From an uncultured Bacilli bacterium (GTDB lineage Bacteria; Bacillota_I; Bacilli_A; RFN20; CAG-826), in the NCBI GenBank assembly GCA_944358865.1, contig CALVRV010000015.1, positions 1-33,790 of the forward strand: a DNA stretch of 33,790 nt, in the 5' to 3' direction. The notes beneath the pieces are model-generated. The model worked only from the letters and a program-made list of their open reading frames with translations. It was not told where the DNA came from and did no database searches. The position numbers and the translations under genes are program-made. This document shows, one piece after another, positions 1 through 23,208 of the stretch. Position 1 is the first letter of the stretch, and each line of letters opens with the position of its first letter.

Positions 1-597
1 ACAACAACACTTCGTAACTGGGATAAGAAAGGACTTTTAAAGCCTGATGAACTTACAAAAGGGAAAGCTAGGCGATATAGAATTGAAACGTTACGAAATA
101 TAAACAGAAATATTATTTTTACTAAAGATGATTTAAAAACAATTGCTTATGCTCGAGTTTCTTCTCATGATCAAAAAGAAGATTTAAATCGACAAGTCCA
201 ATTATTGGAACTCTATTGTGCAAAACATGGCTATAAGTATGAAGTAATTCAAGATATTGGTTCTGGAATGAATTACTATAAAAAGGGATTAACAAAACTT
301 ATTGATTTAATTTTAGATAATCAGGTTCAAAGATTAATTTTAACTCATAAGGATAGGCTTTTACGTTTCGGTGCAGAATTAGTTTTCTCAATCTGCGAAG
401 CAAAAAATGTTGAAGTCATTATTATAAATCAAGGTGATGAAACCCCTTCGTTTGAAGAAGAACTTGCTAAGGATGTTTTAGAAATCATTACAATTTTTTC
501 TGCTCGATTATATGGAAGTCGTAGCAAGAAAAGCGAAAAGCTTATTAGTGATTTGGAGAAAGTAGTTGAAACAGATTTCACAGAAAATAAAAATTGA
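1..597 (+). CDS. tnpA: IS607-family serine recombinase TnpA (5'-truncated by window edge)
   Basis: Transposase of an IS607-type element: a serine recombinase expected to excise and integrate the element through a circular intermediate. The frame is open from base 1, so the gene begins outside the window; about 198 codons remain. The first visible residues (TLRNWDKKGLLKP) match the recognition helix and wing of the MerR-like DNA-binding domain found at the N-terminus of this family. About 55 residues in, AYARVSS carries the catalytic serine of the resolvase fold, followed by LTHKDRLLRFG and the helical end of the catalytic domain. A TTG at 205 could be taken for the start, but that would discard the HTH and the active-site serine. 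It ends in TGA and overlaps the start of tnpB by 32 nt in another frame, the usual IS607 arrangement. No internal damage is seen. Confidence 0.93.
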   Translation, partial: TTTLRNWDKKGLLKPDELTKGKARRYRIETLRNINRNIIFTKDDLKTIAYARVSSHDQKEDLNRQVQLLELYCAKHGYKYEVIQDIGSGMNYYKKGLTKLIDLILDNQVQRLILTHKDRLLRFGAELVFSICEAKNVEVIIINQGDETPSFEEELAKDVLEIITIFSARLYGSRSKKSEKLISDLEKVVETDFTENKN

Positions 598-1846
598 ACC
601 AAATAACATACAAAAAACATATCTTATTAAATGTTTTGGCTGTAAACGCTTTGCATATAATTGGGGTGTAGAGCAATATAACGAAAACATTAAGAAAGGT
701 ATATTTAAAGATGGTTATGATTTAAAAAAAGAATTCAATTCTTTAAAAAGGGATAAATTTTCTTTTGTTTTTGAAGTTACAAAATATGCTACTCAACAAC
801 CTTTTATTCATCTAAATAAAGCTATTAAAGACACTTTCAAAAAAGGAGCTAAGCCAATTGAACTTGCTTTTAAAAAGAAATCAAATAATGAAAGCTTCTA
901 TATTGGTGGAGATCAAATTAAAATTGTTAAAAAACCTAATTCAAACAAGCAGTATATAAAAATTCCCTTACTTGATAAACCTATAAAATTAACTGAAAAA
1001 ATTAAATATGAAGGAAAAATTATATCCTGTACAATTTCTCATATCTATTCGATATATTTTGTTTCTTTTACTTTTGCAATTTCTAAAGAAGAGTTATTAA
1101 AAAAGAAAGCAAAACTTGCTGTTTTTAAAGAAAAAGCTCTTGGAATTGATTTAGGAGTCAAATCAGCTTTAACTCTTTCAATTCCATTTAGCATTCATTT
1201 ACCTGAAGGCATAAAAAAAGAAAGCAGAAAGCTTATTAAATTATCTCGACAACTTGATAGAAAGATCCACCCAAGAACCAAAGGGGATCAAACTAAAAAG
1301 TCTAGAAATTATTTAAAAGCTTCTTATCGTTTAGCAAAAAAACATCTACGTATTTTAAATATGAAAACCGATTTTATTGAAAAAGTTTCTTCTATAATTG
1401 TTAAAAACTTTGATTTTATATGCATGGAAGATTTAAATGTTAAAGGAATGCTTAAAAATCATTATTTAGCAAGGGCCATCAGTGAAGTTTCTTTTTATAA
1501 ACTTAAAGAAAAGATACATTCAAAATGTGATATGGTTGGAAAATATTTTCTTTTGGCGGATAGATTTTTTGCTAGTTCTAAAATTTGTTCAACATGTGGT
1601 AATTATAATTCTCAAATAAAATTAAGTGATAGAAAATTTATTTGTGATAACTGCGGCGTTACAATTGATCGTGATTTTAATGCTGCAATTAATTTATATA
1701 ATTATTTAATTAAAAAAGTAGGTAGAGTTACTGCCGAATTTACGCTTGTGGACTTAACGGCTCTGATAAACGATTTCGATTTAAATCGTTTGTCAACCAG
1801 TAAGGTAGAAACAAGAAACCAACGTAATTTTTATATTAATTTATAA
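566..1846 (+). CDS. tnpB: IS607-type TnpB, RNA-guided RuvC nuclease
   Basis: 426-residue TnpB, the transposon-encoded ancestor type of Cas12 nucleases; members studied elsewhere cut DNA guided by an RNA from the element's right end. It looks intact. RuvC-I is ALGIDLGVKSAL with D195, RuvC-II is FICMEDLNVKG with E288, a four-cysteine zinc ribbon follows (C341, C344, C360, C363), and RuvC-III is TIDRDFNAAINL with D370. The start is a TTG at 566 preceded by GGAGA at 555-559 (6-nt gap), inside the end of tnpA. There is no ATG that would keep the N-terminal beta-barrel. Length is normal for the family (about 370-430). The C-terminal coding sequence also contains a strong hairpin (1768-1791) likely to belong to the guide RNA. 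Cleavage activity is inferred from intact catalytic residues only. Confidence 0.95.
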   Translation: MKQISQKIKIEPNNIQKTYLIKCFGCKRFAYNWGVEQYNENIKKGIFKDGYDLKKEFNSLKRDKFSFVFEVTKYATQQPFIHLNKAIKDTFKKGAKPIELAFKKKSNNESFYIGGDQIKIVKKPNSNKQYIKIPLLDKPIKLTEKIKYEGKIISCTISHIYSIYFVSFTFAISKEELLKKKAKLAVFKEKALGIDLGVKSALTLSIPFSIHLPEGIKKESRKLIKLSRQLDRKIHPRTKGDQTKKSRNYLKASYRLAKKHLRILNMKTDFIEKVSSIIVKNFDFICMEDLNVKGMLKNHYLARAISEVSFYKLKEKIHSKCDMVGKYFLLADRFFASSKICSTCGNYNSQIKLSDRKFICDNCGVTIDRDFNAAINLYNYLIKKVGRVTAEFTLVDLTALINDFDLNRLSTSKVETRNQRNFYINL

Positions 1847-1862: not shown

Positions 1863-2747
1863 TATAACGGTCACCAATTAATTGATAAGTTAAATTCGTA
1901 TCACTCGGTGTATCTCCAATAAAATCTACTTCTACTTGGCTAAATATATCATCATAATCTAAATCATAAATATGAGGATTTAAATTATTTTTAATAGTAA
2001 TTTTTGTAGGATAAACTAAAGAAGAAGTATTATTTTTAACTTCTAATTTGATCTTATTATTTATATTTGAAGTTTCATATATATAAGTGATACCTTCATT
2101 TAATGCGTGAATAACATTATATTTATCAACATAAGCAATATCACTATCACTAGATATAAATTCTAATAACGATTCATCAAAATATCTTAATGCATCATTG
2201 TTATTTGAATAGTCATTATATTAATATCAATATAAGAAGAATGTCCTACTAATAAAGTATCATCAGATAAAGAAAATGTATAATTAGTGGGTTTTTGTAA
2301 AGGTTTTGCGCTTATTTGTATAGTTTTTGAAATATTTTTATTATCGTCACTTGTAATAACAAATTCACCAGAAGCATCAGAAGAATAACTTTCAATATAA
2401 AAAGAATTGCCTTGTCTTACAACATTAAAATTTGTATCATCGCTAATCGTATAACTTATTGCTTTATTAGAAGCATTATTTGGTAATACTTCATAAGTAA
2501 TTCTTTGTGTCGTGCCATAAATAATATCTATATGTTCAGTATTGTTTTCAATATTAATATCACTAACTGGTACATATTCTTCTTGATAAGAAACGTTATT
2601 ATTAATTAAAAAAGCAAAAATATATCCAAAAAAATTACTCTGATTCGCGCTTAAATCACCTGGCAAAGCACTTTCAGCAATAATAAAAACATTTAACAAA
2701 ATACTTAACGATAAAAATATGTATTTAAGAATATTTTGCTTCTTCAT
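1862..2747 (-). pseudogene. Secreted Ig-like (BIG2-type) protein, frameshifted and truncated by the IS607 element
   Basis: The first part reads from ATG at 2747 as a secreted protein: a Lys-led hydrophobic segment (residues 3-25) followed by beta-rich sequence with BIG2-like phrases (ITYEVLPNNASNKAISYTISD). That frame stops at 2187. A second minus-strand frame continues without a stop from about 2219 to the IS end and carries on sensibly (YSNNNDALRYFDESLLEFISSDSD broken as two pieces, then an Ig-like continuation). One missing base near 2214-2222 (after codons for YIDIN) reconciles the two. About 300 residues remain before the element interrupts the gene. A sequencing error at the frameshift cannot be excluded, but the 3' loss is real within this window. 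No Shine-Dalgarno precedes the ATG. The start lies 39 nt after the yfcE-like stop, so it may once have been co-transcribed with 2787-3845. Confidence 0.72.
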
Positions 2748-4066: not shown

Positions 4067-4099
4067 AAAATGATGTAAGACATTGCCCTACATCATTTT
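4067..4099 (-). terminator. Rho-independent terminator closing the starch/nuclease operon
   Basis: An 11-bp perfect stem (AAAATGATGTA at 4067-4077 with TACATCATTTT at 4089-4099) and an 11-nt loop. Read on the minus strand it lies 25 nt beyond the stop of the CBM26 lipoprotein and runs into a T tract (TTTTTAATTG). The flanking A and T tracts make it potentially bidirectional. Confidence 0.82.
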
Positions 4100-4123
4100 A
4101 ATTAATGTTATTTATAATGTTTT

Positions 4124-4939
4124 TTATTCTTGATTAGAATATATTGACCAAGTTCCTTCAACTTTATTTCCGTCGCTTGTCCAGGCTTGCTCACTATCTA
4201 AAATAGTGTATAAATTATTTTCTTCACGTAAAGCCAAGTCAATATCTATTGTTTGAGCGCCCCAATCTTCACTGCCATCGCCACTTCGTCTTGAGAAAAT
4301 ACATGAATCGTATTTTTCTAAATCAATATCGATATACCAATAATTATATCCAATTGGATTGCCCTCGCTATCAACACCAGTTTGAACAAATTCAATCGCG
4401 TTCATTTTTTCACCTGGCCATTCTAGTTTATAACCGCTATCACCCCAAAGATAAATATAGGTAGATGCTCCAAATTGATTCCACCAAGAAGCATCTTGGA
4501 AATAAATTCTTGTTAAATCTCCAACTGGTGGATCAGGTGGAACATCACTTCCTCCGATATCACTATAATTACCTGTATAAGAATAAAAAGCGTATAAGAT
4601 TTCACCATCGATATCATTTGAAAGTTCGTCAATTACTTTAGGTGTTCCTTCCCCATCATATATAATCCATGAAGTAAATTCGACATCTTTACTAGTGGAA
4701 GTTATAACATCTTTACCTGGCAAAGCTTCACCAGAGATACCTTCGTATAAGACATAATTTTCTAAAAATAATTCATCATTATTTTGACCTTTTTGGCCAT
4801 TATATAAACCATTTTGTCCTAAAACAAGATTAACACTTATATTATCAACTGCATCAACGTGATTGATATTATTATTACAAGCACTGATGAAAGGAATAGT
4901 TAATCCTAATATTGAAACAAATAATATTTTACTTTTCAT
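4124..4939 (-). CDS. Starch-binding lipoprotein with CBM26 module
   Basis: 271-residue lipoprotein. The signal is MKSKILFVSILGLTIPFISAC, giving lipidated C21. Residues about 35-125 form a module with NGLYNGQKG, LYEGISGEALPGKD and a W/Y-rich end, which I do not assign to a named family. A short Pro linker (VPPDPPVG) leads to residues 143-265, which look like a CBM26 starch-binding domain: RIYFQDASWW, YIYLWGDSG, WPGEKM, YNYWYIDIDLEKYDSCIFS and a QTIDIDL strand, with the aromatic and Trp residues typical of alpha-glucan binding. No catalytic domain is present, so its likely job is to hold starch or glycogen fragments at the membrane surface for the co-transcribed amylase and pullulanase. RBS is GGGAGGT; it starts 16 nt after the amylase stop. 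CBM26 assignment is by motif recall and fairly confident. Confidence 0.8.
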   Translation of the reverse strand: MKSKILFVSILGLTIPFISACNNNINHVDAVDNISVNLVLGQNGLYNGQKGQNNDELFLENYVLYEGISGEALPGKDVITSTSKDVEFTSWIIYDGEGTPKVIDELSNDIDGEILYAFYSYTGNYSDIGGSDVPPDPPVGDLTRIYFQDASWWNQFGASTYIYLWGDSGYKLEWPGEKMNAIEFVQTGVDSEGNPIGYNYWYIDIDLEKYDSCIFSRRSGDGSEDWGAQTIDIDLALREENNLYTILDSEQAWTSDGNKVEGTWSIYSNQE

Positions 4940-4955
4940 TATTAACTAACCTCCC

Positions 4956-7427
4956 TTATTTTTGAACAACAATTACTCCATATGGAGTAAGAGTTCCTGT
5001 TGATGAAGCGCTATTTAATGCATATACAGTGCCGTTTGTTACATCAATATTTGCCGTTAAATTATTTTTACCAACATTGATATAAACATCAAACGTTCCA
5101 TTTGAAGAATTAACTACAAAATAATAAACATCTTGGCAATCATTAAAATCATAGCCCTGATATTGAGCGTTTTTACCATATAATGATTTAATTTGTGTTA
5201 ATTGTTTAACAAAATCTAGCATGTCATTATCGCTAGTGCTTTGTTGTTGTTCCTCAAAGGATTTAATTGTTTCATTATATGTATCCCAAGTTACTTCATA
5301 CCCATTAAAAGCGTAATCAGTAGTAATACTTTCATCACCCCATTTAAATGGTTGACGATACCATAAATCTAAATTATTTTCATTTTCATATAAGGCGATG
5401 TGTTGATCGGTATTAGAAGACATACCTAATTCATCACCATAATAAATCCATGAAATACCTGGGGTTAGTAAAGTTGATGCCATACCAACTTTCGCGCGAT
5501 TAATTTCATCTCTTTTACCAGTAATTTTATCTGTATCACCAGACATATGATTAATTAATCTTTGTACGTCATGATTAGAAGTAAAAGCAGAGTTAATAAA
5601 ATCGCTACGATTTCCACCAGGGACACTGACACCAGTATCACCTAAAGTGTAAGTGCTATTACTTTTAAATGTATCATATGTTTCACTTTGATGAATTTTA
5701 GAAGAAGTATTTGTCTGGTGGCCAACATTATCATATAACCATTCACGATTATGATAATATAAACCAAAATCAAATTGAGAATCTAAAGCTTGATAATATG
5801 GTGCAATTCTTGTACCCCAACCATCAAAGTTTTCACCAACTAAGAAACAATTTGGATAAATAGCTTTTAAACGATTAGCGAATTCTTTCCAAAAATTAAC
5901 ATTTTTAGTTAAATCACTAGAATAATCAAAGTCTTTAGTAACAGTTTCCATCATTTCAGTATCATAATAAGTTCTTTCTCCAGTGTCACTAATGACAATA
6001 TCATTTCCAGTATCTTCAACTTCATCTTTCATATAGATGTGTTTAACCGCATCTAATCTAAAACCATCTAAACCAAATCCAAGCCAATATAGAGCCATAT
6101 TAATAACTAAATCTCTAGTAGCTTGACAATCATAATTAAGTTCAGCCATACCAGAACCAAATTTTCCATAATAGTAATAATTTGATTCACCATCTTTATA
6201 CCAATCTGGATGGTCTTCAACATTAACATCAACATATCGACCATCTTGATATAATTTAACTTTGTCACCTTTAAATTTCCAATGGTACATGTCGCGATAA
6301 TTAATTTCTTCACCAAATTCATTATGTCCAACTTCTCCAGCTTGAGATTTCATAAACCAAACATTATTTTTACTTGTATGGTTTAAAACTAAATCCATTA
6401 AGACTTTCATTCCTTTTTGATGCGCTTTATAAATTAATTCACGATAATCACTTATTGTGCCAAATTTAGGATCGATTTGATAAAAATCTGTTACATCATA
6501 ACCATGATAAGATTCACAAGCTTGAACAGGTGTTAACCATAAAACATCGACACCTAAATCATCTAAATAATCAAGAGAATCAATAACACCACGAATATCA
6601 CCTAATCCATCACCATTACTATCTCTAAATGAGGCAACAAATATTTGATATCCAACACCTAATGAAGAAAAATCACTAGAAGTAGGAGAATTATTAAATA
6701 TTGAAGATGAGGAATCAACATTTGTTTGACTACGATATTGACCTGTTGTATCTGTCACAATAGGATTAACATCTACTTCATTAGAATAAGTAAAAGTATA
6801 ATTTTTAACATTTCCTTGGACACAATATATATGTAAGTAGCCTTTCTTAGCTAATTCTTGGTCAATATTTTGAATGTATGTATTACTACCACCATCACTA
6901 GTCCAGTGTGTACCTCCGCTCATAGAATTTTGATCAATAATTAAAAATCCTAGTCGAGTCATATTTTCAAAACTGACAGGGTTTCCACTTCTTCCACCGA
7001 CAAGATTTTCAGCATTTAAATCTATATCCATAATACGTCCACTTTGATCAATATCAGCACCGCTATTACCAATATTGGTCATCCAAGAAGTAGACATTTC
7101 ATAAAATGTATCTTGAACTTGCTTATTACTAGCGCCCCACAAAGTACCTTCACTATCAGTCGGAGCGTTTTGCCAAATCCAAAAAGCATAATTATCGTAA
7201 TTACCATCTTCGCGATAATAATGGAAATATATGTGGCCTTCTTTAGACCATGTACCAACCCATTCATCATAATTTTCTACATTTGTTGTTGATGGATTAT
7301 GACTTGTTGTTGTAGTTGTAGAAGGATTTGGAGTAGTTGTGCTAGTAACAGGATTATCATTATCACAACTTGTAATTGTTAAACATAAAGTTAAAGCGAT
7401 AATAGATATATTTTTTTTATTAATCAT
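4956..7427 (-). CDS. Secreted lipoprotein alpha-amylase (GH13) with N-terminal CBM41
   Basis: 823-residue membrane-anchored alpha-glucan hydrolase. I chose the ATG at 7427, not the upstream one at 7469: it gives a clean lipoprotein signal ending LTITSC (C21) and has AAGGAGA about 11 nt upstream, whereas the longer form overlaps the previous gene. A Thr/Ser/Pro linker (about 25-48) precedes a CBM41-type module (IYFHYYREDGNYDNYAFWIW, about 65-170). The GH13 barrel begins near 258 (GYQIFVASFRDSNGDGLGD) and has all four conserved regions: DLVLNH, GFRLDAVKH (nucleophile D459), FLVGENFDG (acid/base E532) and TSNHDVQRL (D620). A C-terminal beta domain ends at VIVVQK. The GDG near the barrel start suggests calcium binding, common in this subgroup. 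Precise specificity (alpha-amylase or neopullulanase-like) is not decidable by eye. Confidence 0.93.
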   Translation of the reverse strand: MINKKNISIIALTLCLTITSCDNDNPVTSTTTPNPSTTTTTSHNPSTTNVENYDEWVGTWSKEGHIYFHYYREDGNYDNYAFWIWQNAPTDSEGTLWGASNKQVQDTFYEMSTSWMTNIGNSGADIDQSGRIMDIDLNAENLVGGRSGNPVSFENMTRLGFLIIDQNSMSGGTHWTSDGGSNTYIQNIDQELAKKGYLHIYCVQGNVKNYTFTYSNEVDVNPIVTDTTGQYRSQTNVDSSSSIFNNSPTSSDFSSLGVGYQIFVASFRDSNGDGLGDIRGVIDSLDYLDDLGVDVLWLTPVQACESYHGYDVTDFYQIDPKFGTISDYRELIYKAHQKGMKVLMDLVLNHTSKNNVWFMKSQAGEVGHNEFGEEINYRDMYHWKFKGDKVKLYQDGRYVDVNVEDHPDWYKDGESNYYYYGKFGSGMAELNYDCQATRDLVINMALYWLGFGLDGFRLDAVKHIYMKDEVEDTGNDIVISDTGERTYYDTEMMETVTKDFDYSSDLTKNVNFWKEFANRLKAIYPNCFLVGENFDGWGTRIAPYYQALDSQFDFGLYYHNREWLYDNVGHQTNTSSKIHQSETYDTFKSNSTYTLGDTGVSVPGGNRSDFINSAFTSNHDVQRLINHMSGDTDKITGKRDEINRAKVGMASTLLTPGISWIYYGDELGMSSNTDQHIALYENENNLDLWYRQPFKWGDESITTDYAFNGYEVTWDTYNETIKSFEEQQQSTSDNDMLDFVKQLTQIKSLYGKNAQYQGYDFNDCQDVYYFVVNSSNGTFDVYINVGKNNLTANIDVTNGTVYALNSASSTGTLTPYGVIVVQK

Positions 7428-7443
7428 AAATCTAATTATCTCC

Positions 7444-7863
7444 TTATTCGACATAATCCCATATGCCATATAGTGTTAATACAGGAGGATATAAATTTTC
7501 TGGCACGGTATCAACACTAAAATCCCATAAATCTTCACTAGACGCTACTAGGGGTTTTGTTGACCAGCCAACAAAAGTATTAAAAGCAGGGTCATTAGAT
7601 TCTGGCTCTTCTGGCACATCAGTAATTAATTCATGAGTTCTACCATGACCAGTATAATATGTTTGACCAGCAATGCTTTCATAAATACTGAGATAATAAT
7701 AAATAGTAATATCTTGAATAATTGCAGGTCTAGATGTTGTTGTAGTAGTTAAAATAGGATCTTCACTAGTAGTGGTTGTTGATGACGTTGTACTTTCTTG
7801 ACACGCACCTAAAACAAGAACCATAGGAAGCAAAGCTAATACAAATTTATATTTATTTTTCAT
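7444..7863 (-). CDS. Small lipoprotein with one InlB B-repeat-like domain
   Basis: 139 residues from the ATG at 7863, which has GGAGGAT 7 nt upstream; the longer 153-residue reading would overlap the pullulanase gene and hide the lipobox. The signal ends LVLVLGAC, giving C21, followed by a Ser/Thr-rich stretch (SSTTTTSEDP). Residues about 45-139 resemble the beta-grasp InlB B-repeat/Listeria-Bacteroides repeat: a Tyr-rich first strand (ITIYYYLSIYES), then FNTFVGWSTKP, WDFSVDTV and the ending LTLYGIWDY. Such repeats normally mediate surface binding. It lies 4 nt after the pullulanase stop and 16 nt before the amylase start, so it is tied to glucan use, possibly as a scaffold. No ligand is known. 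Confidence 0.78.
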   Translation of the reverse strand: MKNKYKFVLALLPMVLVLGACQESTTSSTTTTSEDPILTTTTTSRPAIIQDITIYYYLSIYESIAGQTYYTGHGRTHELITDVPEEPESNDPAFNTFVGWSTKPLVASSEDLWDFSVDTVPENLYPPVLTLYGIWDYVE

Positions 7864-7867
7864 TATT

Positions 7868-10800
7868 TTATCCTCCAATCGCGTATACGACAAATTGTCT
7901 TGCACCTAGTGAAATTGTCTTGTTTCCTAAACTAATACCTTCACTAGTTAAACCATTAGGAGACGCACTATTATAAATAAGTGTGCCTTGTCCTGCTTGA
8001 TCCCAACTTAATGTTGAATCAAGTCTTCCAGCAAAGAATAAATAATATTTTGTGCCAGTATGATTATTTCCAGTTGCAAAATATAGACCTAACATTGTCG
8101 CACCTGGATTATTATCAGTAGCAAATTCATGGTTATCCCAGTTTGAGAAACTATTAAATGGTGATCCAGGATCAGAATCATAACTTAATCTTGCATCGCT
8201 AAAGGTTTTACGAATCTTAAACATCTCAACAAAGCCTTTGTAAACATCATAAACATTGACATCTTGGCCTTGATATTCGATTGATATTTTACGGTCATAT
8301 TTAAAGGAGTTAGTTTCATCACTATTACGATATGAATTATGAGTAATAATTTTACCATACATTCTAGCTTCATTAGTGGAAACTTCAACTTCTGGATCTT
8401 CACTATAAGAAGGATAATCTGGATAAGGACGTACTTCATAAGATTCATTTTCTGGATTAACTTCTTTACTTCTAAATAATTCTTCTCCGCCTTGTATAAA
8501 TGTTATACCTTGTGAAAACGCTACTGCAGCATGAGAAGCTAAAGATGCTTTAGCCACATCTAAAGGATTTGGTTCAACACTAGCAGGAGGATTTGAAGTT
8601 GTTTCAGAAGTATGTTCTGCAAGAGTGTAATTTAATTGATCAAATAAAGTGTAATTATCATGACAAGAAACATAATTAACTGTTTGATATGGATTTGCAC
8701 CACCAGCATATGGATTAGTTCCTCTTAACATAGCGGCAACATTACCAGCATTCGTGCCATCAAAACCTTGAGCAACAAATCCCCAACCTGGATATGGATT
8801 ATTTGTTCCATAGCCTTGGTCATTACCACCTCTAACAGCGTTTCTTCCTCCATCATTAAAGCCACCTAAATGACCAGGTGAATCACTAGAAGCATATAAA
8901 TCGGTGTATACAACACTGCTATCAGTGCCTTTTGTGCCTTCTTCACCACCATAACCACCTGATGTCCAACCTTCACCATAAACGACAAAGTCTGGATCAA
9001 TTTCATGTAATGCATCTTTTACTTTACGCATTGTTCCAGTATCAATAAGACCCATAAGGTCAAATCTAAATCCTTTGATTTTATATTCGCTGGCCCACCA
9101 AGTAACACTGTCAACAATAAATTTAGACATCATTGTTGCTTCAGTTTTAACTTCATTACCACATCCAGCGCCATTTTTATAATAACCATCATCAGTCATT
9201 CTAAAATAATAATTAGGCATTATTTTTTGGAAATTAGATGATGTGGCAGAGCTAACATGATTATAAACAACATCCATAATAACTCTTGTATGGTTGTCGT
9301 TATTTGCAAAAGCTTGCACTAATTGTTTAAATTCTTTCACGCGGACTGCACCATCAAATGGATCACTAGAATAGCCACCCTCTACTACGTTGTAGTTTAA
9401 TGGGTTGTAGCCCCAGTTAAAAGACATATCAACTTCGTTATTTGATTGATCAAAAACAGGAAGAATTTGTACAGCGTTAACACCTAATTCTTCAATATGA
9501 TCAAATCCAGTTGTTACTGTAATATTATCTTTTGTATATGTTGTTCCTTCTTCAATAAAGGCTTGATAAGTACCAGGAGTAGATTCACCATTCCAAGTAT
9601 CATCCATTGTTAAATCACGAATATGAATTTCATATACTGCTAAATCAGTTGGCTTTGCTAAATCAAAAACTGGATCACCATCCCAAACAAGTGGAATATC
9701 ATCCCAACCTTCTGGATCGGTAGTGTCAAAATCTAAAACCATACCTCTTTCACCATTGACACCAGCAGCCTTAACATATGGATCAACAACTTCGTTTTGG
9801 CCTGAACTATTATAAACATAATAGTTATAATATCTTCCGTTTAAATCACCATCAACTTCACAAGACCAAACACCGCCTTCCATATAATTCATACGATAAA
9901 TAGTGTAAGCATCGTTGATATTACTAGGATTCTCATCTAAATAACCAGGAGTGCCTGTATAAAAAAGACGAAGTTCAACACGCGCGGCCATTGGAGCCCA
10001 CAATCTAAATGTAGTTTTTTCTTTAGTATAGATAGGACCTAATTGACCATCATATGTATAAAATTTTTCAAAACGATCTGTACCATATAATAAGTCAAAA
10101 TCAGCAGGTCGAGTTTTTGGACGATCTTTATAATTTGTAAAAGTAATTTCAATTTGATAAACAACTGAAGGTGGCATGTGATATTCAAAATGAATATCGA
10201 TTTCATTTGTCTTCTCTAAAACATCACCACTTGCAATCATATAATCATCATATTTGCTAGTTTGTTCAGTTAAACCTAAATTGTAATATCCAGGTGTTAA
10301 AGCATGAACACGATAAGAAGAAATAGGACCAGTACCTTCGACATGAATGGTTTTCCAATCTGTGAATTTAGCATAAGTAATTTTGTCACCTAATGTTTCT
10401 TCTTGAGTAGCGAATATATCAATATTTGCACCGTTACCATCAATAGCCCAAATGTCTAGATGGCCGTTTTCATCTGGTGTAAATTTACTATAATCAATAA
10501 CTGTATCTGTTGATTGACCCGCCCAAGTATTTTGTACTTTGATAATAAAATAAAATATTTCATGAGGTGGATAATCTTCTTTTGGATTTAATGTAATATA
10601 CATGCCAAAATCATCAACACCGTCAGCTTCTAATTCAACACCATCGGCACCACCAGCCCAAACATAAAATCTTAAATTATCGTAATTTGTTGGTGGATCC
10701 ATTTGATAGCGAATAGTTAAAGTATCAGGTATAACAATAGGATCATCGCTAGCGTTTTTAACACCAATATATTCACCTCTTGGGTCATCGCTAAATTGAG

Positions 10801-10906
10801 TCATGACCTCTTTTTCTTCTTCACTAAGACGAATCGGATTCGTGTTAGCGCACACTCCAATTGTTAAGGCTAAAAAACCTAACATCGTTACATGACGAAT
10901 TTTCAT
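7868..10906 (-). CDS. pulA: Secreted type I pullulanase (GH13_14-like)
   Basis: 1012-residue debranching enzyme expected to cut alpha-1,6 bonds in glycogen, amylopectin or pullulan. The signal peptide is short (MKIRHVTMLGFLALTIGVCA). The residues before C19 do not make a proper lipobox, so cleavage after A20 by signal peptidase I is more likely. Residues about 60-170 resemble CBM41 (LTIRYQMDPPTNYDNLRFYVW), and a CBM48-like module follows at about 290-395 (TTFRLWAPMAARVELRLF). The barrel contains the pullulanase signature NWGYNP (497-502) and catalytic GFRFDLMG (D616), YGEGW (E645) and SCHDN (D750). Starts with AAGGAGGG upstream. No C-terminal anchor is visible, so it may be released, unlike the lipoprotein amylase in the same operon. 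Confidence 0.95.
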   Translation of the reverse strand: MKIRHVTMLGFLALTIGVCANTNPIRLSEEEKEVMTQFSDDPRGEYIGVKNASDDPIVIPDTLTIRYQMDPPTNYDNLRFYVWAGGADGVELEADGVDDFGMYITLNPKEDYPPHEIFYFIIKVQNTWAGQSTDTVIDYSKFTPDENGHLDIWAIDGNGANIDIFATQEETLGDKITYAKFTDWKTIHVEGTGPISSYRVHALTPGYYNLGLTEQTSKYDDYMIASGDVLEKTNEIDIHFEYHMPPSVVYQIEITFTNYKDRPKTRPADFDLLYGTDRFEKFYTYDGQLGPIYTKEKTTFRLWAPMAARVELRLFYTGTPGYLDENPSNINDAYTIYRMNYMEGGVWSCEVDGDLNGRYYNYYVYNSSGQNEVVDPYVKAAGVNGERGMVLDFDTTDPEGWDDIPLVWDGDPVFDLAKPTDLAVYEIHIRDLTMDDTWNGESTPGTYQAFIEEGTTYTKDNITVTTGFDHIEELGVNAVQILPVFDQSNNEVDMSFNWGYNPLNYNVVEGGYSSDPFDGAVRVKEFKQLVQAFANNDNHTRVIMDVVYNHVSSATSSNFQKIMPNYYFRMTDDGYYKNGAGCGNEVKTEATMMSKFIVDSVTWWASEYKIKGFRFDLMGLIDTGTMRKVKDALHEIDPDFVVYGEGWTSGGYGGEEGTKGTDSSVVYTDLYASSDSPGHLGGFNDGGRNAVRGGNDQGYGTNNPYPGWGFVAQGFDGTNAGNVAAMLRGTNPYAGGANPYQTVNYVSCHDNYTLFDQLNYTLAEHTSETTSNPPASVEPNPLDVAKASLASHAAVAFSQGITFIQGGEELFRSKEVNPENESYEVRPYPDYPSYSEDPEVEVSTNEARMYGKIITHNSYRNSDETNSFKYDRKISIEYQGQDVNVYDVYKGFVEMFKIRKTFSDARLSYDSDPGSPFNSFSNWDNHEFATDNNPGATMLGLYFATGNNHTGTKYYLFFAGRLDSTLSWDQAGQGTLIYNSASPNGLTSEGISLGNKTISLGARQFVVYAIGG

Positions 10907-10924
10907 TAATATCCCTCCTTTTAA

Positions 10925-11869
10925 TTAAATTTCGCCTTCACAATATAAATAGTAGATAATTGCCCCTGGCCAAAAAAAGATAATAAGTAAAACAAATATA
11001 GCGACATTTAAGTCTCTTTTTTGTTTGCCATTAACAGTGTTATTTGGCATAGTGGAATTATTAGTTTGTATATAATAAGGATTGTTATTACCACAATAAG
11101 GACAACGCTCGTTATTTTCATTTAAAGAAGCACCACAATGTAGACACTCATTTGCGACAAGATAATCGCTAATCGTATTATTTTGACTATCTTTTTCTTT
11201 TAATAATTCGACATCATCATGGCTTGCTCTAATATCAAGAATATTAAAGTTATCAAGCATAAAACCATAAGCATACAAAATAGTATTTAATTTTTCTTTA
11301 AAATAATCTTGGATTTGCAATAAATTTGTTTTAAATTGACGATATGTTAAATTATTTTTAATAACATAATCACTTAAAAATGGTTTTAATATTTCATTAA
11401 TTTGACGATTAATAAATATTTTTAATGAATTAATATAAACTACATTATTTGATAAAAATCTATCTAATAAAGAATTGAAAAAGTTATTAAAATCATTGAG
11501 TTTAATAATTAAAGATCCTCGGATTTTTAAATGCAATACAACATCTTGATATACAGCATCATTAAGTGTGATATTTTCATGACTTCCAAAAGTAGAATTG
11601 ATTATCATGTTATTTTTATTAATAAAATAAATATCATAAGGCAATACATCTTTACTATTTTGATATGTTGATAAAGATTCGATTAATTTATTATCTAGAA
11701 TGTATTGTCCTTCACTCAATATTTTAATTACAGCATTATAATCTCTAATTAAAGCAATTTGATTGCTTTTAACAATTAATTTGCTTCCATAAGAATATTT
11801 GATTGGATTGATATGACATAATAAAATTCCATTGTCATTAAAATTATATGAAATCGTAATTTTTGCCAT
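10925..11869 (-). CDS. SPFH-domain/zinc-ribbon membrane protein (YdjI-like)
   Basis: 314 residues. Residues about 20-220 look like the SPFH/virion-core-like domain found in B. subtilis YdjI-type proteins (SNQIALIRDYNAVIKILSEG, then an even beta/alpha pattern up to GFMLDNFNILDIRAS). A zinc ribbon follows with C242-x2-C245 and C256-x2-C259 (CLHCGASL, CPYCGNN). A polar linker leads to a single hydrophobic segment (about 288-308, NVAIFVLLIIFFWPGAIIYYLY) at the extreme C-terminus. It has no signal peptide, so the SPFH and ribbon parts should be cytosolic and tail-anchored. Its place between a secreted nuclease and a pullulanase (gaps 15 and 18 nt) suggests a membrane-organising or envelope-stress role for the secretory load, but that is inference. 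RBS AAAGGG. Confidence 0.8.
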   Translation of the reverse strand: MAKITISYNFNDNGILLCHINPIKYSYGSKLIVKSNQIALIRDYNAVIKILSEGQYILDNKLIESLSTYQNSKDVLPYDIYFINKNNMIINSTFGSHENITLNDAVYQDVVLHLKIRGSLIIKLNDFNNFFNSLLDRFLSNNVVYINSLKIFINRQINEILKPFLSDYVIKNNLTYRQFKTNLLQIQDYFKEKLNTILYAYGFMLDNFNILDIRASHDDVELLKEKDSQNNTISDYLVANECLHCGASLNENNERCPYCGNNNPYYIQTNNSTMPNNTVNGKQKRDLNVAIFVLLIIFFWPGAIIYYLYCEGEI

Positions 11870-11884
11870 GTTGAATAGCCCTTT

Positions 11885-14107
11885 CTATTGAATATTGTTC
11901 TTTCTTTGCTCTTTTTTAATTATTAATATAATTATAGCAGAAATTATTATACTTAATCCAATAATACATGATAACACAATTACAACAACAAAACTACCTA
12001 AATTATCATCAATCGTGACATATGGGGAATTGTTAATCTCACTTCTTCCGATAAAATTTTCATAAGTAGATGTGCCATATTTTCCAATAATGTAATCATA
12101 TCTTTCCATCGCTAGAGAAATATCATCACTTCCCCCTGATGAAGCATTAACTAATTTTGTCTTTTCTTCTTCGGAAAGTGTATTGTATAAATCTTTTAAA
12201 GCATTCCATTCATCAATGCTTGGAGGAGTATTTCCAGTCGCATCACAATGTAAATTATTTAAAAAGTCGTAAGCAAAATCACTCGCTAAATATTGTTCTT
12301 CAATAGGTGGTTCATCTGGGTCTGGATCAGGATCTGGTTCAACAACTTCTTCAATAAATTTATATAATTGAATAGCTTGTTGGTTTTGATATGTAGCGCT
12401 TTTATAATATCTAAAACCAGGCCAGCTTGAATTAAATCTTAAATAAGTAGAATTGCTTTCAATATATGTTGAATTGTCTTGATAATAAATATCATTTTTA
12501 ATGCTAGGAACGCTGTTAGATTGGCTTAACCCATTGCTGTCTGCATTTTCATTATAAATATATGTTTCATCATTATATGAAATATCATAACCGCTAGTGT
12601 TTGAACCAGAAATATTAACCGCGTAATTTGTTGCATTTGTGTCACTTATTACACCATTATCTATACTAATTTCAACATAATTATTTGCAGCATTAATTTT
12701 TTCTAATCCAGGATTTAATACATAACCAAGAGTATTAGATGATTCATAAACAATAAGATATGTCCCATTATAATCATTTAAAGAAGATGTCACTTTTTCA
12801 AATGTACCACTTAAAGATGTAGAATTAACTACCTCAACATCAATCGTATCACTAATATTAGGATATAAAACTGAAGTCGCTGTAATTTGAGTTTTACCTT
12901 CTCTTAAACCTAAAACTAAACCACTACTAGAAACACTTGCAATACTTTCATCTAAACTAGAATAAGTAACGTTATTAGAAGCCTCGCTTGGTGTAGCAAT
13001 AACACTTAATTGTTTTTGTTCATTTACTTTTAATTGTAAAGAAGAAGGACTTATTTCAATACTTTCTAATGTGATAGGTTCACTAACAGTGACAAGACAA
13101 TTAGCTTCTAATAAATCACTTCCATAATAAGCATAAGCATTAATTGTTGCGCTTCCCTTTTCTAAAGCAGTTAATAAACCGTTGCTATCAACACTTACAA
13201 TACTAGAATTACTGCTAGAATAGTTAATTTCAACAGTTTTATCAACACTGACATAAGCATTTAAATTATAAGTTTCACCAACTTGTAAATCTAATGTTGT
13301 CGGCATAATAATAGCGTTTTGATTGCCCCAAATTAAATTTGCATATTCAGGATGGTCAACAAAAGGATTACGATTGCCTTGGTTATCATTAACAGCGTTA
13401 TTACGATAAATATCTCTATTGGCCACACCAAAAGTATTATGCCAAGATAAACAAGTCTCAACACTATCAAAAATGTCAGTTATTTCATAACCATAATAAA
13501 CACAACAATACATTGCCGCTCTTGCTACTTCACCTTTAGCTTCATCACAAGGTTCAAAATAAGAACTTGTTGTATAACAATCCCATAAATCACCATATGT
13601 TTGAACTTGATTAGAAGAATTATGAGCTACTTCAGCAAATTTTTTATTGCCTCTAATGTTATTAATTTCACCTTCACAAGCAAAAATATTATGATTGTCA
13701 GTATCAGAATTAGGGAATCTAGTTTGTGTAAATATATGTTCTCTATTCCATGTTGTAGGAGAATAGGAACCACCAACATGAGCAGATTTATCAAATTCTT
13801 GACGAGTATATAAACATATTACTTTATTATTGCTACCTTCAGCCTCATCTGCATCTTCATATCTATCCCAATCATATGATTTAGATCTAGGATTATTAAA
13901 AGACGCTAGTTCATCTAATAAAGCATCCCCTACTAGACCTTCACATCTAGCGTAATAGTTGCTTGGATAATCACCAACTTGAGCGCCAGAAAAAGCATCA
14001 ACATGACCAATATTATCAAAATTAATATTTGGTGATATTAAAAGTGAAACCGCTAGTAAGGAAATAATGCTCATAGCAAATGTTTTAATTAAATTTATTT
14101 TTTTCAT
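11885..14107 (-). CDS. Membrane-anchored extracellular endonuclease I with BIG2 repeats
   Basis: 740 residues. A Sec signal (residues 1-25) leads to an endonuclease I/NucM-type nuclease (about 75-262): WNREHIFTQ with catalytic H124, the metal-ligand region NNIRGNKKF, KGEVARAAMYCC, and a QGNRNPFVDHPEYANLIW ending. Two bacterial Ig domains follow (about 267-345 and 348-430: SVDSNGLLTALEKGSATINA, SVSSSGLVLGLREGKTQITA). A Ser/Asn-rich domain, an acidic PDPDPDPDEPP linker (about 595), a helical stalk and one C-terminal membrane helix (about 703-727) with a KKEQRK tail complete it. It should cleave DNA or RNA outside the cell while tethered. It is first in the glucan operon; the AGAAAG ribosome site is weak. 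Confidence 0.92.
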   Translation of the reverse strand: MKKINLIKTFAMSIISLLAVSLLISPNINFDNIGHVDAFSGAQVGDYPSNYYARCEGLVGDALLDELASFNNPRSKSYDWDRYEDADEAEGSNNKVICLYTRQEFDKSAHVGGSYSPTTWNREHIFTQTRFPNSDTDNHNIFACEGEINNIRGNKKFAEVAHNSSNQVQTYGDLWDCYTTSSYFEPCDEAKGEVARAAMYCCVYYGYEITDIFDSVETCLSWHNTFGVANRDIYRNNAVNDNQGNRNPFVDHPEYANLIWGNQNAIIMPTTLDLQVGETYNLNAYVSVDKTVEINYSSSNSSIVSVDSNGLLTALEKGSATINAYAYYGSDLLEANCLVTVSEPITLESIEISPSSLQLKVNEQKQLSVIATPSEASNNVTYSSLDESIASVSSSGLVLGLREGKTQITATSVLYPNISDTIDVEVVNSTSLSGTFEKVTSSLNDYNGTYLIVYESSNTLGYVLNPGLEKINAANNYVEISIDNGVISDTNATNYAVNISGSNTSGYDISYNDETYIYNENADSNGLSQSNSVPSIKNDIYYQDNSTYIESNSTYLRFNSSWPGFRYYKSATYQNQQAIQLYKFIEEVVEPDPDPDPDEPPIEEQYLASDFAYDFLNNLHCDATGNTPPSIDEWNALKDLYNTLSEEEKTKLVNASSGGSDDISLAMERYDYIIGKYGTSTYENFIGRSEINNSPYVTIDDNLGSFVVVIVLSCIIGLSIIISAIIILIIKKEQRKNNIQ

Positions 14108-14354: not shown

Positions 14355-15161
14355 CTAGAATAATTTAAATATTTTAGTTTGTAATAGGGTATCATTTTTA
14401 TTTTGCAATTTTTTCTTTGTTCTATAATATTTGTCGATACTAATTCCAAGTAATTGCGCAGCTTGTTTGTTAGTTAAATCTTTATTTTTAACTTTCTCTA
14501 ACAAATCATAAAACGCTAAAATGTCGACATATTTTTCTTTTCTTCCTTGATAATGACCTTCGTTTTTTGCAATACATATGCCTTCTTTTTGTTTGTCTTT
14601 AAGATTTTTATATTGCATTTTATACAAATAGCGAAGCGTTTTAAAAGTAATTGAATTATTTATCTTATTACCATCAAGATAGACTTGATTATTAGATGCA
14701 ATATTTTGAAGAATTATTTTAATTACACCAAAGACATTTGCTTTTCCTTTAACTTCATCTATATTTACTGTCTTAGGTTTATCATAATTAATTAAATAAA
14801 ATTTATCTCCAGAATATCTTTCTTTGCTTTTAATTAAAAATTCTATCGGATCCATAAAAGTCATATTTACTTTTTGAAGTAATTCATAATAATCTTCTCT
14901 ATTTTTTAAAGGCACTCTTTCTGAAATAAATACGGGTACAATATTTTTTCTAATATAAACTTCTTTTTTTAAATCTAAATTAAGACCTGGAATACCTTGA
15001 AATAAATCACTATCTAATAAATCAATAACTTCATAATTTGGATAAAAACGATATTCAAAAGTTTCATCTTCATTTAAAAAATATTCAATAACACAAATTC
15101 TATATTCAATATTAAGTTTGTCTTTTAAACAAATTATTCCTTTAGTTAAACTATGTTTCAT
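14355..15161 (-). CDS. HipS-like / resolvase-HTH fusion, probable antitoxin partner of the HipA-like kinase
   Basis: 268 residues, cytosolic. Residues about 20-125 resemble the N-subdomain 1 of HipA (the stand-alone HipS of HipBST systems): FQGIPGLNLDLKKEVYIRKN, then PVFISERVPLKNREDYYELL and MDPIEFLIKSKERYSGDKF, recalling the family pattern of a Pro-Gly loop, small hydrophobic core, FF-x-LLPE-like helix and DPFELL helix. Residues about 172-255 resemble the E-helix and C-terminal DNA-binding domain of a serine resolvase (QKEGICIAKNEGHYQGRK, then LTNKQAAQLLGISIDKYYR). No resolvase catalytic serine motif is present, so recombination is not expected. It overlaps the kinase gene by 4 nt (ATGA), implying translational coupling. 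The last residues, about 251-261, are encoded by one of the 31-bp repeats. The HipS relation is motif-level inference; the HTH relation is stronger. Confidence 0.68.
   Translation of the reverse strand: MKHSLTKGIICLKDKLNIEYRICVIEYFLNEDETFEYRFYPNYEVIDLLDSDLFQGIPGLNLDLKKEVYIRKNIVPVFISERVPLKNREDYYELLQKVNMTFMDPIEFLIKSKERYSGDKFYLINYDKPKTVNIDEVKGKANVFGVIKIILQNIASNNQVYLDGNKINNSITFKTLRYLYKMQYKNLKDKQKEGICIAKNEGHYQGRKEKYVDILAFYDLLEKVKNKDLTNKQAAQLLGISIDKYYRTKKKLQNKNDTLLQTKIFKLF
14379..14409 (-). repeat. 31-bp repeat, distal copy, inside the 3' end of the HTH gene
   Basis: Matches the copy at 16049-16079 in 28 of 31 bases by eye and in the same orientation. On the minus strand it runs ATTGCAA, a 17-bp centre containing AATGATACCCT, then ATTACAA (ATTGCAA in the other copy). 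It encodes residues about 251-261 of the partner protein. Confidence 0.88.
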
Positions 15162-16018
15162 TTACTGTTGCCTACCAATTTATCATAAGAATATTTAAGT
15201 ATTTTCATAAATCTTTCTTTTATCATCACCTTATAAAACTGTTTATAAATATTAGAAATATCAAGCGAATCAATTAGTTGATTTATCTTATTAAGATCAA
15301 CTTTTGGATATATTTTAATTAACGCATCATTACATTCTTTATATTTTAAAGAAGATATGACTTCAAAATATGATGATTTTTTATTATCAAGCTTTATTTG
15401 TGAAGTTGGAAATGAATAAATTCTTTTATTAATTTCATCTTCACTACTTAAAATAAATTTAATTTCATCTTCGTTTGTTAATTGTGGAAATAAAGATGAA
15501 CCATTATCAAATACTGGAGCAAGCTTATATTTATTATCTTTTTTTAAAAATCCCCAGTTTGCACCATGACGATCGAAATTTCCAAGCAAGGCATCTATTA
15601 TATATATCTCAAAAAATATTGAAATTGTTTCATTTACATTAGTTATTTTTTTATTTTTTTCTAAAAGGGAAATAATATCTTCATATGAGTATTGATATTT
15701 TTCTTTATCGGTTTCAATTGTGGATTCTCCAACATCATTAAAAGGAACAAATTCATATCCATTGACGGCAAAATCTTTACAAGCCACTACAAATTCCCCA
15801 TTATATATTCCAAGATAGGTTTTATGAGCGTTAATTCCTAATAGTTCAAAAATATGGCTACCTAAAAATTCACAAATATGATTATTTCTTTTTCCAAATT
15901 TTGTGTTTTTTTGGAATTTGAGCATGTATGGCTCGCCATTAATTAAAATTCCTAGTTTTCTTTCTGAGCCACCATATCGAATATTACTTAGTTTACAATT
16001 AGAGAAATCATAATACAT
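15158..16018 (-). CDS. HipA-like (HipT/CtkA-type) serine/threonine kinase toxin
   Basis: 286 residues from the ATG at 16018. A longer reading from TTG at 16054 is unlikely because the promoter -10 box falls inside that extension. Kinase landmarks: a Gly-rich loop with NIRYGGSERKLGI, then MLKFQ (K34), catalytic loop LLGNFDRHGANWGFL (D149, N154) and metal-binding PVFDNGSSL (D171). These match stand-alone HipA-like kinases such as CtkA and HipT, which lack the HipA N-subdomain. HipA-family toxins phosphorylate translation factors or aminoacyl-tRNA synthetases; the target here is unknown. It is followed, not preceded, by its probable partner with an ATGA overlap. No Shine-Dalgarno precedes the ATG. 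Confidence 0.86.
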   Translation of the reverse strand: MYYDFSNCKLSNIRYGGSERKLGILINGEPYMLKFQKNTKFGKRNNHICEFLGSHIFELLGINAHKTYLGIYNGEFVVACKDFAVNGYEFVPFNDVGESTIETDKEKYQYSYEDIISLLEKNKKITNVNETISIFFEIYIIDALLGNFDRHGANWGFLKKDNKYKLAPVFDNGSSLFPQLTNEDEIKFILSSEDEINKRIYSFPTSQIKLDNKKSSYFEVISSLKYKECNDALIKIYPKVDLNKINQLIDSLDISNIYKQFYKVMIKERFMKILKYSYDKLVGNSK

Positions 16019-16025
16019 GCTAATA

Positions 16026-16054
16026 ATTATAAATGACAATATAGATATTTGCAA
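16026..16054 (-). promoter_or_regulatory. Promoter of the HipA-like module, predicted leaderless
   Basis: -35 TTGCAA (16054-16049), exactly 17-nt spacer, perfect -10 TATAAT (16031-16026), then 7 nt to the ATG at 16018. Transcription would start at or next to the start codon. The -35 is part of the ATTGCAA element of the 31-bp repeat, so a protein bound to the repeat would block RNA polymerase. Confidence 0.78.
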
Positions 16055-20904: not shown

Positions 20905-23208
20905 TTATTTGCTTAAACGTCTTTTTCTTTCATAAATAAAGAATACACATAAAGCAGATAATGACACGACTGAAACAACCACTATTGTTGCAATTAATGT
21001 AGAATTATCATAATTTGCAATAATAGGCGCGGCATTATAAGCACCTAAATATCTTTCTAAACATGCATCATATTTGGTAATAAAATCAGTTCTTAATATT
21101 CTATTTCCAGTATATGAAACATCACCAAAGCCATAATCATAGACCATAACATCTTCTAATGTTTGACGATATTGGTCCACTAAAGATTCATATTGAGTTA
21201 AATAAGTATCGAAATTTTCATCGTTTTCAACAACATCACAAGTATGAATATCTTCTAAAGCATTTATGGCTGGAATTAATGCTGAAGCAACTTCATCTTC
21301 TGTTGCATAAATAGAGATATATTTTAAATATACAGCAGCGTTGTTGTGTTCTGGATCATTATCTATCATTTCAATTTCAACATGTCCCCACATTGGAGTG
21401 GTTAATACAAATGAATAATCTGTAGCACTGCTTGTAAGAATAGTGGTTCCAACAACATTATTATTAACTTTTACGTTTAAAGTAACATCTTCACTATTAT
21501 CTGATGCGGTAGAAGCATTAACGTCAATACGTGTAATCAAAGCTTTATTATCTTTAATAAACGCATCGGAGAAGAAATTTAAAGATGTTGTAGGTTTTGT
21601 TCCTGTACCAAAATGTAAACCTTTATCATCTGAAAAAGAACTTAATGTAGAGCCATCATTAAAATAATATTCCCATGTTACACCATCATGAGTAAATTGA
21701 TTACCACTTGGATTTCCTGTTGGTTCATATGTATAAACAGGTTCAACATATTCTAAGACATTGACATCAAAAGTTAATTCATTTGAAGTAAATCCTTCAT
21801 ATGTGAATTTAATTTTAACTTGTTGGGTTCCTAAAATAGGAGTGGCAGGATCAAATATAAATTCATGACCCACGAGAAGAGTTTCACTTTCATTATCGCT
21901 ATAATTAACACTAGCAACTAATCCAGTAGTATCCCATTGTTCGTTTGTATAATATTGAGTTTTTTCTAAAGTGCCATTTAAATTAACAGAACTAATTTCT
22001 TTTTCTTCAGCTGGTTCCCAAACAAAAGTGACTGAATCCAAGTAAATAGCTCCTTTTTTTGATCGAATTCCAACATATTGATAATCGCCTGTTACATCTA
22101 AAGTTGTTTCATTATATGCTAGTTCAAATTTATCATCGGTAGAATTATTATACAAATCGTTTGCACTAGTAAATGGAGTGTTGCTTAAATAAGCTTCAAC
22201 AATATTAGAAGTTGATCTATCCCATTCAATTAAAATTTGTTTAATTTTTCCCCCAGAAGCAGTAGATACGATACCTTTATCTGATTCTGAATTATTTAAT
22301 TGTATATTGCCACTATTATTTGCAATTTTGCCGCTGTAAAGAGCGCTAGAATTAAATTGTTTATTTGTAAAATTAGAATAAGATGAACCGCTTACAAGAT
22401 CACCTGCAGTAATAACATCACTAATTAAATTAGGTGCTTCACTAACAGTAATACCTTCTATTGTTAAAGGGTTAGAAGATAATTCATTATAATTAGCGAC
22501 TACTTCAACACTTGTTACCCCAATTGCTGGTGCTTCTGGAGTAAACGTCCAAGTAATATCACTAGCTTTAATATCTACTGTATCGTCGTTACCTTTAACG
22601 GTTAATCCTGTAGTATCCCAGGCTTCATTATCATAATATTCTTTTTTGGCCATATCACCAGATAAAGAAATATTTGTGATTTCAACTTCTGGAGTTGGAT
22701 CTTTTAATGTAGCATCAATTGAAGTTAGTCTTACTTGATCACCAATATTTTCAAACACTATTTCTTTAAAACCATTAACACTAGAGATTATCCCATTATT
22801 GTTTGCAGCATCTCCGCTATCAGAAGATACTACACTAAAGCTAGAAGCATTGCCTTGTGAAGATTTAAATTCTAATTTTGTTATGAGTCTATTTAACGTT
22901 GAAGTTAATGTAACTACGTTATTTTTGTAAATTCGTAATGAATTCGCATAAAACTTTGGTGGGTTACTGCCTTTTCCTTGAATAACTTTTATATTAACAC
23001 CAGTGACTTCATGTGTGTAGCCTTCTGAAGGAACATCTGAACCATTATCATAAAGGTTTGTTAAATCAATAGTCACTGTCTCATCCGCTGCCTTAACACG
23101 AGTTAAGTCGTTGCCATCAACAGGGTTTGTTAATACTGTGGATGCAAATACACCACCAACAAGTGCAACACCCATTAACGCCATAAATGTCTTTTTAAGC
23201 ACGTTCAT
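20905..23208 (-). CDS. Large surface protein with Ig-like modules and C-terminal membrane anchor
   Basis: 767 residues. A signal peptide (MNVLKKTFMALMGVALVGGV...) probably cleaves near VKAAD (about residue 41). Two related Ig-like modules (Ig_3-like) are recognisable by KEYYDNEAWDTTGLTVKGND (about 190-210) and TQYYTNEQWDTTGLVASVNY (about 415-435), each ending in a strand with LTIEGITV or LTFDVNVLE. Between and around them are jelly-roll-like modules (IKQILIEWDRSTSNIVEAYL, ITKLEFKSSQGNASSF). A helical stalk (about 640-725) and one membrane helix (about 733-757, TLIATIVVVSVVSLSALCVFFIY) with basic tail ERKRRLSK anchor it. No catalytic motif seen; probably an adhesin or glycan-binding protein. 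RBS AAAGGAAA. It stands alone between terminators. Confidence 0.82.
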   Translation of the reverse strand: MNVLKKTFMALMGVALVGGVFASTVLTNPVDGNDLTRVKAADETVTIDLTNLYDNGSDVPSEGYTHEVTGVNIKVIQGKGSNPPKFYANSLRIYKNNVVTLTSTLNRLITKLEFKSSQGNASSFSVVSSDSGDAANNNGIISSVNGFKEIVFENIGDQVRLTSIDATLKDPTPEVEITNISLSGDMAKKEYYDNEAWDTTGLTVKGNDDTVDIKASDITWTFTPEAPAIGVTSVEVVANYNELSSNPLTIEGITVSEAPNLISDVITAGDLVSGSSYSNFTNKQFNSSALYSGKIANNSGNIQLNNSESDKGIVSTASGGKIKQILIEWDRSTSNIVEAYLSNTPFTSANDLYNNSTDDKFELAYNETTLDVTGDYQYVGIRSKKGAIYLDSVTFVWEPAEEKEISSVNLNGTLEKTQYYTNEQWDTTGLVASVNYSDNESETLLVGHEFIFDPATPILGTQQVKIKFTYEGFTSNELTFDVNVLEYVEPVYTYEPTGNPSGNQFTHDGVTWEYYFNDGSTLSSFSDDKGLHFGTGTKPTTSLNFFSDAFIKDNKALITRIDVNASTASDNSEDVTLNVKVNNNVVGTTILTSSATDYSFVLTTPMWGHVEIEMIDNDPEHNNAAVYLKYISIYATEDEVASALIPAINALEDIHTCDVVENDENFDTYLTQYESLVDQYRQTLEDVMVYDYGFGDVSYTGNRILRTDFITKYDACLERYLGAYNAAPIIANYDNSTLIATIVVVSVVSLSALCVFFIYERKRRLSK

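Follow-up and report, generated by a model that had tools for sequence, protein, structure and literature searches.

A predicted surface starch operon headed by an endonuclease I gene in an uncultured member of the Bacilli

The stretch of DNA analysed here (the window, 33,790 nt) is the whole of contig C15 of G000, the genome of an uncultured Bacilli bacterium (1.19 Mb in 39 contigs, 97.65% complete). It was compared with a genus set of five genomes (G000 to G004) and a family set of 116 genomes. The named relatives found through the pullulanase locus are uncultured, mostly Bacilli, Bacillales or Erysipelotrichaceae, and several carry gut or rumen sample names. Small-genome uncultured Bacilli of this kind are difficult to cultivate, and what they feed on is largely a matter of guesswork. 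A conserved set of surface starch genes, with the importer encoded elsewhere, would predict a growth substrate.

Gene order and predicted products

Six genes on the minus strand (14107-4124) encode, in this order, an endonuclease I (EndI), an SPFH/Band 7 protein, a pullulanase (Pul), a small InlB-like lipoprotein, an alpha-amylase (Amy), and a CBM26-type lipoprotein (Table 1). They are separated by 15, 18, 4, 16, and 16 nt, respectively, when the likeliest start codons are used (ATG 7863 for the small lipoprotein and ATG 7427 for Amy, 7469 being disfavoured). On the minus strand of the window, the strongest terminator-like site lies 3' of the last gene, an equivalent terminator follows the last gene in a sister genome (L068:18112-18142), and no terminator-like site was found in the intergenic spaces of the unit, either in the window or in the sister genomes. 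ORFs, strand, spacing, and terminator thus bear out the earlier note, which had described six minus-strand genes with 4-18 nt gaps and one terminator. Promoter-like matches are as frequent in the window as in shuffled sequence, and therefore no promoter is claimed. There is no CcpA (cre) site upstream of EndI in the window, and a conserved leader is not evident across the three operon-bearing genomes. A single cre hit upstream of EndI in G004 (1 mismatch) was rejected since it extends into the 5' end of the coding region.

Table 1. Features of the unit, with positions in the window
Feature	Position	Strand	Basis
EndI: endonuclease I, two Big_2 domains, membrane anchor at the C-terminus (LPXTG absent)	11885..14107	-	Pfam, motifs, hydrophobic segment
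SPFH/Band 7 protein, zinc ribbon, membrane segment at the C-terminus	10925..11869	-	PF13421, 38 bits
Pul: exported pullulanase, PUD (CBM41) + CBM48 + GH13	7868..10906	-	profiles, motifs, solved relatives
Small lipoprotein with one InlB B-repeat-type domain	7444..7863	-	lipobox LGAC, predicted fold
Amy: alpha-amylase lipoprotein, weak PUD (CBM41) at the N-terminus	4956..7427	-	PF00128 255 bits, PUD 21-26 bits
Last lipoprotein: InlB-like + starch-binding-type domain (CBM25/26/41-like)	4124..4939	-	lipobox ISAC, VIA-align
Rho-independent-type terminator	4067..4099	-	15-pair stem, loop of 3, T tract

Five of the six products look exported, the exception being the SPFH protein. EndI matches PF04231 with 93.4 bits (curated cut-off 25) and Big_2 with 98 bits, and it has a WNREH motif, a signal-like N-terminus, and a hydrophobic C-terminal segment (residues 709-727). 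The EH motif is retained in three genomes, and the solved endonuclease I structures 1oup/2ivk are matched weakly. EndI is most likely a secreted, membrane-tethered endonuclease I, with predicted nuclease activity on DNA/RNA. The SPFH protein (weak zinc ribbon match, hydrophobic segment at 287-305) has no N-terminal signal and ends in a membrane segment, and thus most likely faces the cytoplasm. It is 44% identical in G004 and absent from G003; the protein is dispensable to the unit, and a needed role for it is not supported given the five-gene version.

Among all NCBIfam models, Pul scores best with TIGR02104 (type I pullulanase), its 469.4 bits falling below the curated cut-off of 504.5 bits; PUD and CBM48 score 31 and 42 bits, and solved pullulanases match with E about 1e-95. 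The GH13 motifs NWGYNP, FDLM, GEGW, and CHDN are intact, and NWGYNP fits the YNWGYDP-type motif that, together with the GH13 catalytic residues, we take to be the signature of type I pullulanases. On inspection of the sequence, the last residues of the signal peptide, IGVC-A, make a poor lipobox, and the G003 Pul has no Cys at that place; in this genus Pul is therefore probably not lipidated but secreted. Amy has the lipobox ITSC and intact catalytic motifs, and among its best solved matches are 1wza and, for the catalytic domain, the surface amylase SusG. Related gut enzymes that are named pullulanase can cut alpha-1,4 bonds (PMC5320581).

The small lipoprotein of the window has no Pfam match to the InlB-like family PF09479 (Flg_new), which matches clearly in the relatives L075, L084, and L177. 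In a structure model built with 26 relatives, pLDDT exceeds 90 for most of the domain, and the five best PDB matches are without exception structures of Listeria InlB that include the B-repeat (TM 0.82 against 2y5p, by target length; best E 9.5e-4). The modelled domain can be assigned to the InlB B-repeat fold, and the InlB-repeat lipoprotein proposed earlier is retained on the predicted fold of the window copy, without the Pfam match. In the last lipoprotein, residues 31-122 align with an InlB B-repeat (VIA-align, Z 5.9). For residues ~140-268 the ten best VIA-align rows are CBM41, CBM25, and CBM26, the families being tied at Z 7.0-8.2, which lies in the middling range of the tool. This domain matches CBM26 (PF16738) with 14-16 bits (15.7), below the cut-off of 28.1, and its relatives score 19-27 bits. 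All ten rows belong to a single functional class, and the CBM26 profile match, weak but obtained independently, agrees with them; the domain is a candidate starch-binding-type module. A Foldseek search with the model returned antibody-like beta-sandwiches only, and a sequence search of the C-terminal domain against solved structures found nothing. Relatives join the two kinds of domain in one chain: a lipoprotein in L084 has a clear Flg_new (InlB-type) repeat and a CBM26 match, and in L075 the lipoprotein two genes past the pullulanase has CBM26, Flg_new, and Big_2, in several copies. The earlier note had listed an amylase lipoprotein with CBM41 and a CBM26 lipoprotein; both are lipoproteins by their lipoboxes, with CBM41 weak and CBM26 below cut-off.

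Conservation in the genus and the family

The full six-gene order is present in G004, followed by the same Fld and MPE neighbours as in the window. In G003, which lacks SPFH, the other five genes lie in different flanks (its UDG gene sits on another contig). The order is thus not unique to this genome, and the refuting outcome that the earlier note had named, a gene order seen nowhere else, did not occur. The order EndI-Pul-InlB-Amy-CBM26 persists between G000 and G003 across ~40% Pul divergence and the change of flanks, which argues for functional coupling. G001 and G002 have neither a PUD protein nor a long pullulanase, the absence being less sure in G002, which is only 89% complete. In the nuclease domain, the closest EndI matches of these two genomes reach only about 35% identity, so that the operon-type EndI seems to come together with the starch genes.

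Family-wide, 30 loci with a long pullulanase (>=40% identity) could be scored, some of them from closely related genomes and thus not all independent. The InlB-like lipoprotein is the next gene after Pul in 25 of the 30, a relative of the two-domain lipoprotein lies at most four genes away in 15, and a gene of MsmK size (840-860 aa) is found upstream in 14, where the order is MalF, MalG, MsmK, two small lipoproteins, Amy, lipoprotein, Pul, InlB. The starch core of the unit is therefore a recurring cassette of the family. In G000, contig C21 (L118) carries MalE, MalF, MalG, a second amylase lipoprotein, MsmK, and two lipoproteins; compared with the genes directly upstream of the amylase in relatives, MalF/MalG are 55-63% and MsmK 46-49% identical. 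A LacI regulator lies on C27, and importer loci lie on both C21 and C27. The absence of a transporter and regulator noted earlier thus holds for the six genes of the unit and fails for the genome. Since importer genes stand directly upstream of the amylase in many relatives, the simplest reading of these sequences is that an ancestral starch locus was split in this genus, and the missing transporter looks like the product of that split rather than a transporter-free strategy. The MalK/MsmK-like ATPase on C21 (L118:6389-8932) is 847 aa long, with known domains ending at ~369 and followed by ~480 aa without a family; its size of ~850 aa is kept in family relatives.

The distribution of the nuclease is different. 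EndI genes occur in 105 of the 116 family genomes, usually in several copies, and an EndI gene directly precedes the Pul cassette in three of the five genus genomes and nowhere else among the 80 loci compared. Coupling of nuclease and starch genes is thus real and limited to the genus, the nuclease being a local addition; the unit is nuclease-led, as described earlier, within this genus, and the cassette elsewhere in the family is not. A family-wide link between EndI and starch genes was considered and rejected: among the matches listed, a nuclease lies within ~4-11 kb of a PUD protein in few genera (a lower bound). Among the same matches, EndI adjoins starch enzymes in this genus and in G125, from another genus (again a lower bound). 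The G125 locus (L133:11338-18391, minus strand) is an independent case, in which the gene for a secreted EndI immediately precedes those for a GH13 enzyme and another pullulanase, all in one orientation.

The purH gene is absent in all five genus genomes, with matches in 13 of 14 control genomes. Purine synthesis is therefore probably incomplete in the genus and purines are probably scavenged. This makes nucleic-acid salvage by the nuclease plausible and offers the supply of nucleic-acid precursors as a testable growth requirement. Of the DNA/RNA scavenging suggested earlier, that much stands; a Bmp-type nucleoside-binding protein was not found, and the cassette has no nuclease elsewhere in the family.

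Proposed working of the unit and competing explanations

We consider the following proposal as a whole probable. A single transcript would place starch-capturing and starch-cutting proteins on the outside of a cell of Gram-positive type. The fourth and sixth products, both lipoproteins, would hold alpha-glucan near the cell, the sixth by its CBM25/26/41-type domain, with the InlB-like domains serving as binders or spacers; the Amy lipoprotein would cut alpha-1,4 bonds and Pul alpha-1,6 bonds, and maltodextrins would enter by the MalEFG-MsmK importer encoded on C21. Tethered EndI would cut DNA/RNA at the surface and supply nucleotide salvage in a cell unable to finish purine synthesis. The starch function of this surface operon is well supported, and the degradation of starch or glycogen with non-catalytic binding lipoproteins, as first suggested, gains from the order kept in two more genomes; feeding on mucus or host glycogen found no specific support.

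The role of the InlB-like lipoproteins is the point at which another explanation competes best. InlB-type repeats act as spacers or adhesins in other bacteria, and there is a considerable chance, somewhat short of even, that here too they serve generically, as spacers or as adhesins towards host or bacterial surfaces, and do not bind starch. Their only fold relatives are InlB B-repeats, with no carbohydrate-binding modules among them, and no paper was found that ties such repeats to starch binding; against this stand the position directly after the pullulanase in most scorable loci and the pairing with CBM26 domains within single chains of relatives. The InlB-like lipoprotein beside the pullulanase is an obvious candidate for a novel component that serves in starch binding or docking. 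That the InlB B-repeat lipoprotein forms a so far unrecognised module for alpha-glucan binding or enzyme docking, and that the genus in addition runs a joint starch and nucleic-acid apparatus from one promoter, is a bolder combination that we regard as unlikely.

EndI and SPFH may instead be hitchhikers, a rearrangement in the genus ancestor having put a common surface nuclease upstream of the cassette with no joint function. EndI is indeed widespread in the family and adjoins this pullulanase in one genus only, the SPFH gene can be lost, and by a rough estimate (~4 EndI and 9 GH13 genes and an assumed ~1,100 genes per genome) the family should contain several EndI-GH13 adjacencies by chance alone; the survival of the five-gene order between G000 and G003, and the lack of close EndI relatives in both genus members without the cassette, make this explanation rather unlikely. 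Two or more transcripts, EndI-SPFH having its own promoter and serving, for example, to clear extracellular DNA, and Pul onward having another, would find room for a promoter in the SPFH-Pul gap of G004 (55 nt) and the EndI-Pul gap of G003 (at least 85 nt, about 100 nt) and a hint of different histories in G+C (SPFH 0.23, Pul 0.35), but this is improbable given the short gaps throughout the window and the intergenic spaces free of terminator-like sites.

Relation to known systems and other features of the window

A Gram-positive polysaccharide utilization locus (gpPUL) is defined by a degrading enzyme, a carbohydrate transport system, and a transcriptional regulator in the locus (PMC5320581). 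With two GH13 enzymes and neither transporter nor regulator among its six genes, the unit is not a gpPUL by this published definition. It has in common with the gpPUL starch loci of Eubacterium rectale/Roseburia (PMC5320581) the exported GH13 enzymes with CBM26/CBM41 and a presumed ABC import of maltodextrins, and differs from them also in its small InlB-like lipoproteins and the nuclease at its head. The unit works like the surface half of a gpPUL and is a variant of known Gram-positive starch loci; its most unusual parts are the pullulanase-linked InlB-like lipoprotein and the leading nuclease. Like the Bacteroides Sus system (SusG, SusE/SusF), it combines a surface amylase with non-catalytic surface starch-binding lipoproteins, but neither SusC/SusD nor an outer membrane is expected, the binders are of InlB/CBM26 type instead of X25 type, and the pullulanase lies inside the unit. 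The amylosome of Ruminococcus bromii (Sas20, Amy10, Amy12; PMC9112005) is likewise rich in CBM26 surface starch proteins, and the Pul catalytic domain has near relatives in Amy12 and Amy10; in contrast, no Pfam match to dockerin or cohesin domains was found in the six unit proteins, whose attachment would be by lipid or membrane anchor.

For the nuclease the closest parallel lies in mycoplasmas, where surface nuclease genes precede ABC transporter operons and are considered to support the uptake of nucleotides (PMC9740415). In both cases a surface nuclease gene stands first in an operon for nutrient uptake, and the bacterium has a small genome and depends on nucleotides; the mycoplasma enzyme is of SNase type and precedes a transporter, whereas endonuclease I precedes starch enzymes here, so the parallel is one of logic and not of homology. 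No paper was found that links a nuclease with a starch operon.

Several other features were noted. EndI residues ~609-740 match parts of other proteins of the genus, and several secreted proteins of the genus (including the one at window 20905-23208, minus strand) seemingly have in common a helical C-terminal region followed by a membrane anchor without LPXTG. A short ORF for an exported product (2187-2747, minus strand), which matches Big_2 weakly, may represent a truncated surface protein. At the contig edge, an ORF (566-1846, plus strand) with a zinc-finger CxxC pair resembles, by eye only, IS200/IS605-type OrfB/TnpB. Upstream of the unit (14355-16054, minus strand) lie a HipA-like gene (HipA_C, 57 bits) and a partner gene without a known family; a second HipA-like pair is located on C10 (L121:3757-5419) with 32-34% identity. 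Finally, a membrane-anchored leucine-rich-repeat-type protein (24412-26493, minus strand) is encoded within an oligopeptide ABC transporter operon and holds the same place in G004 (L134) with 55% identity.
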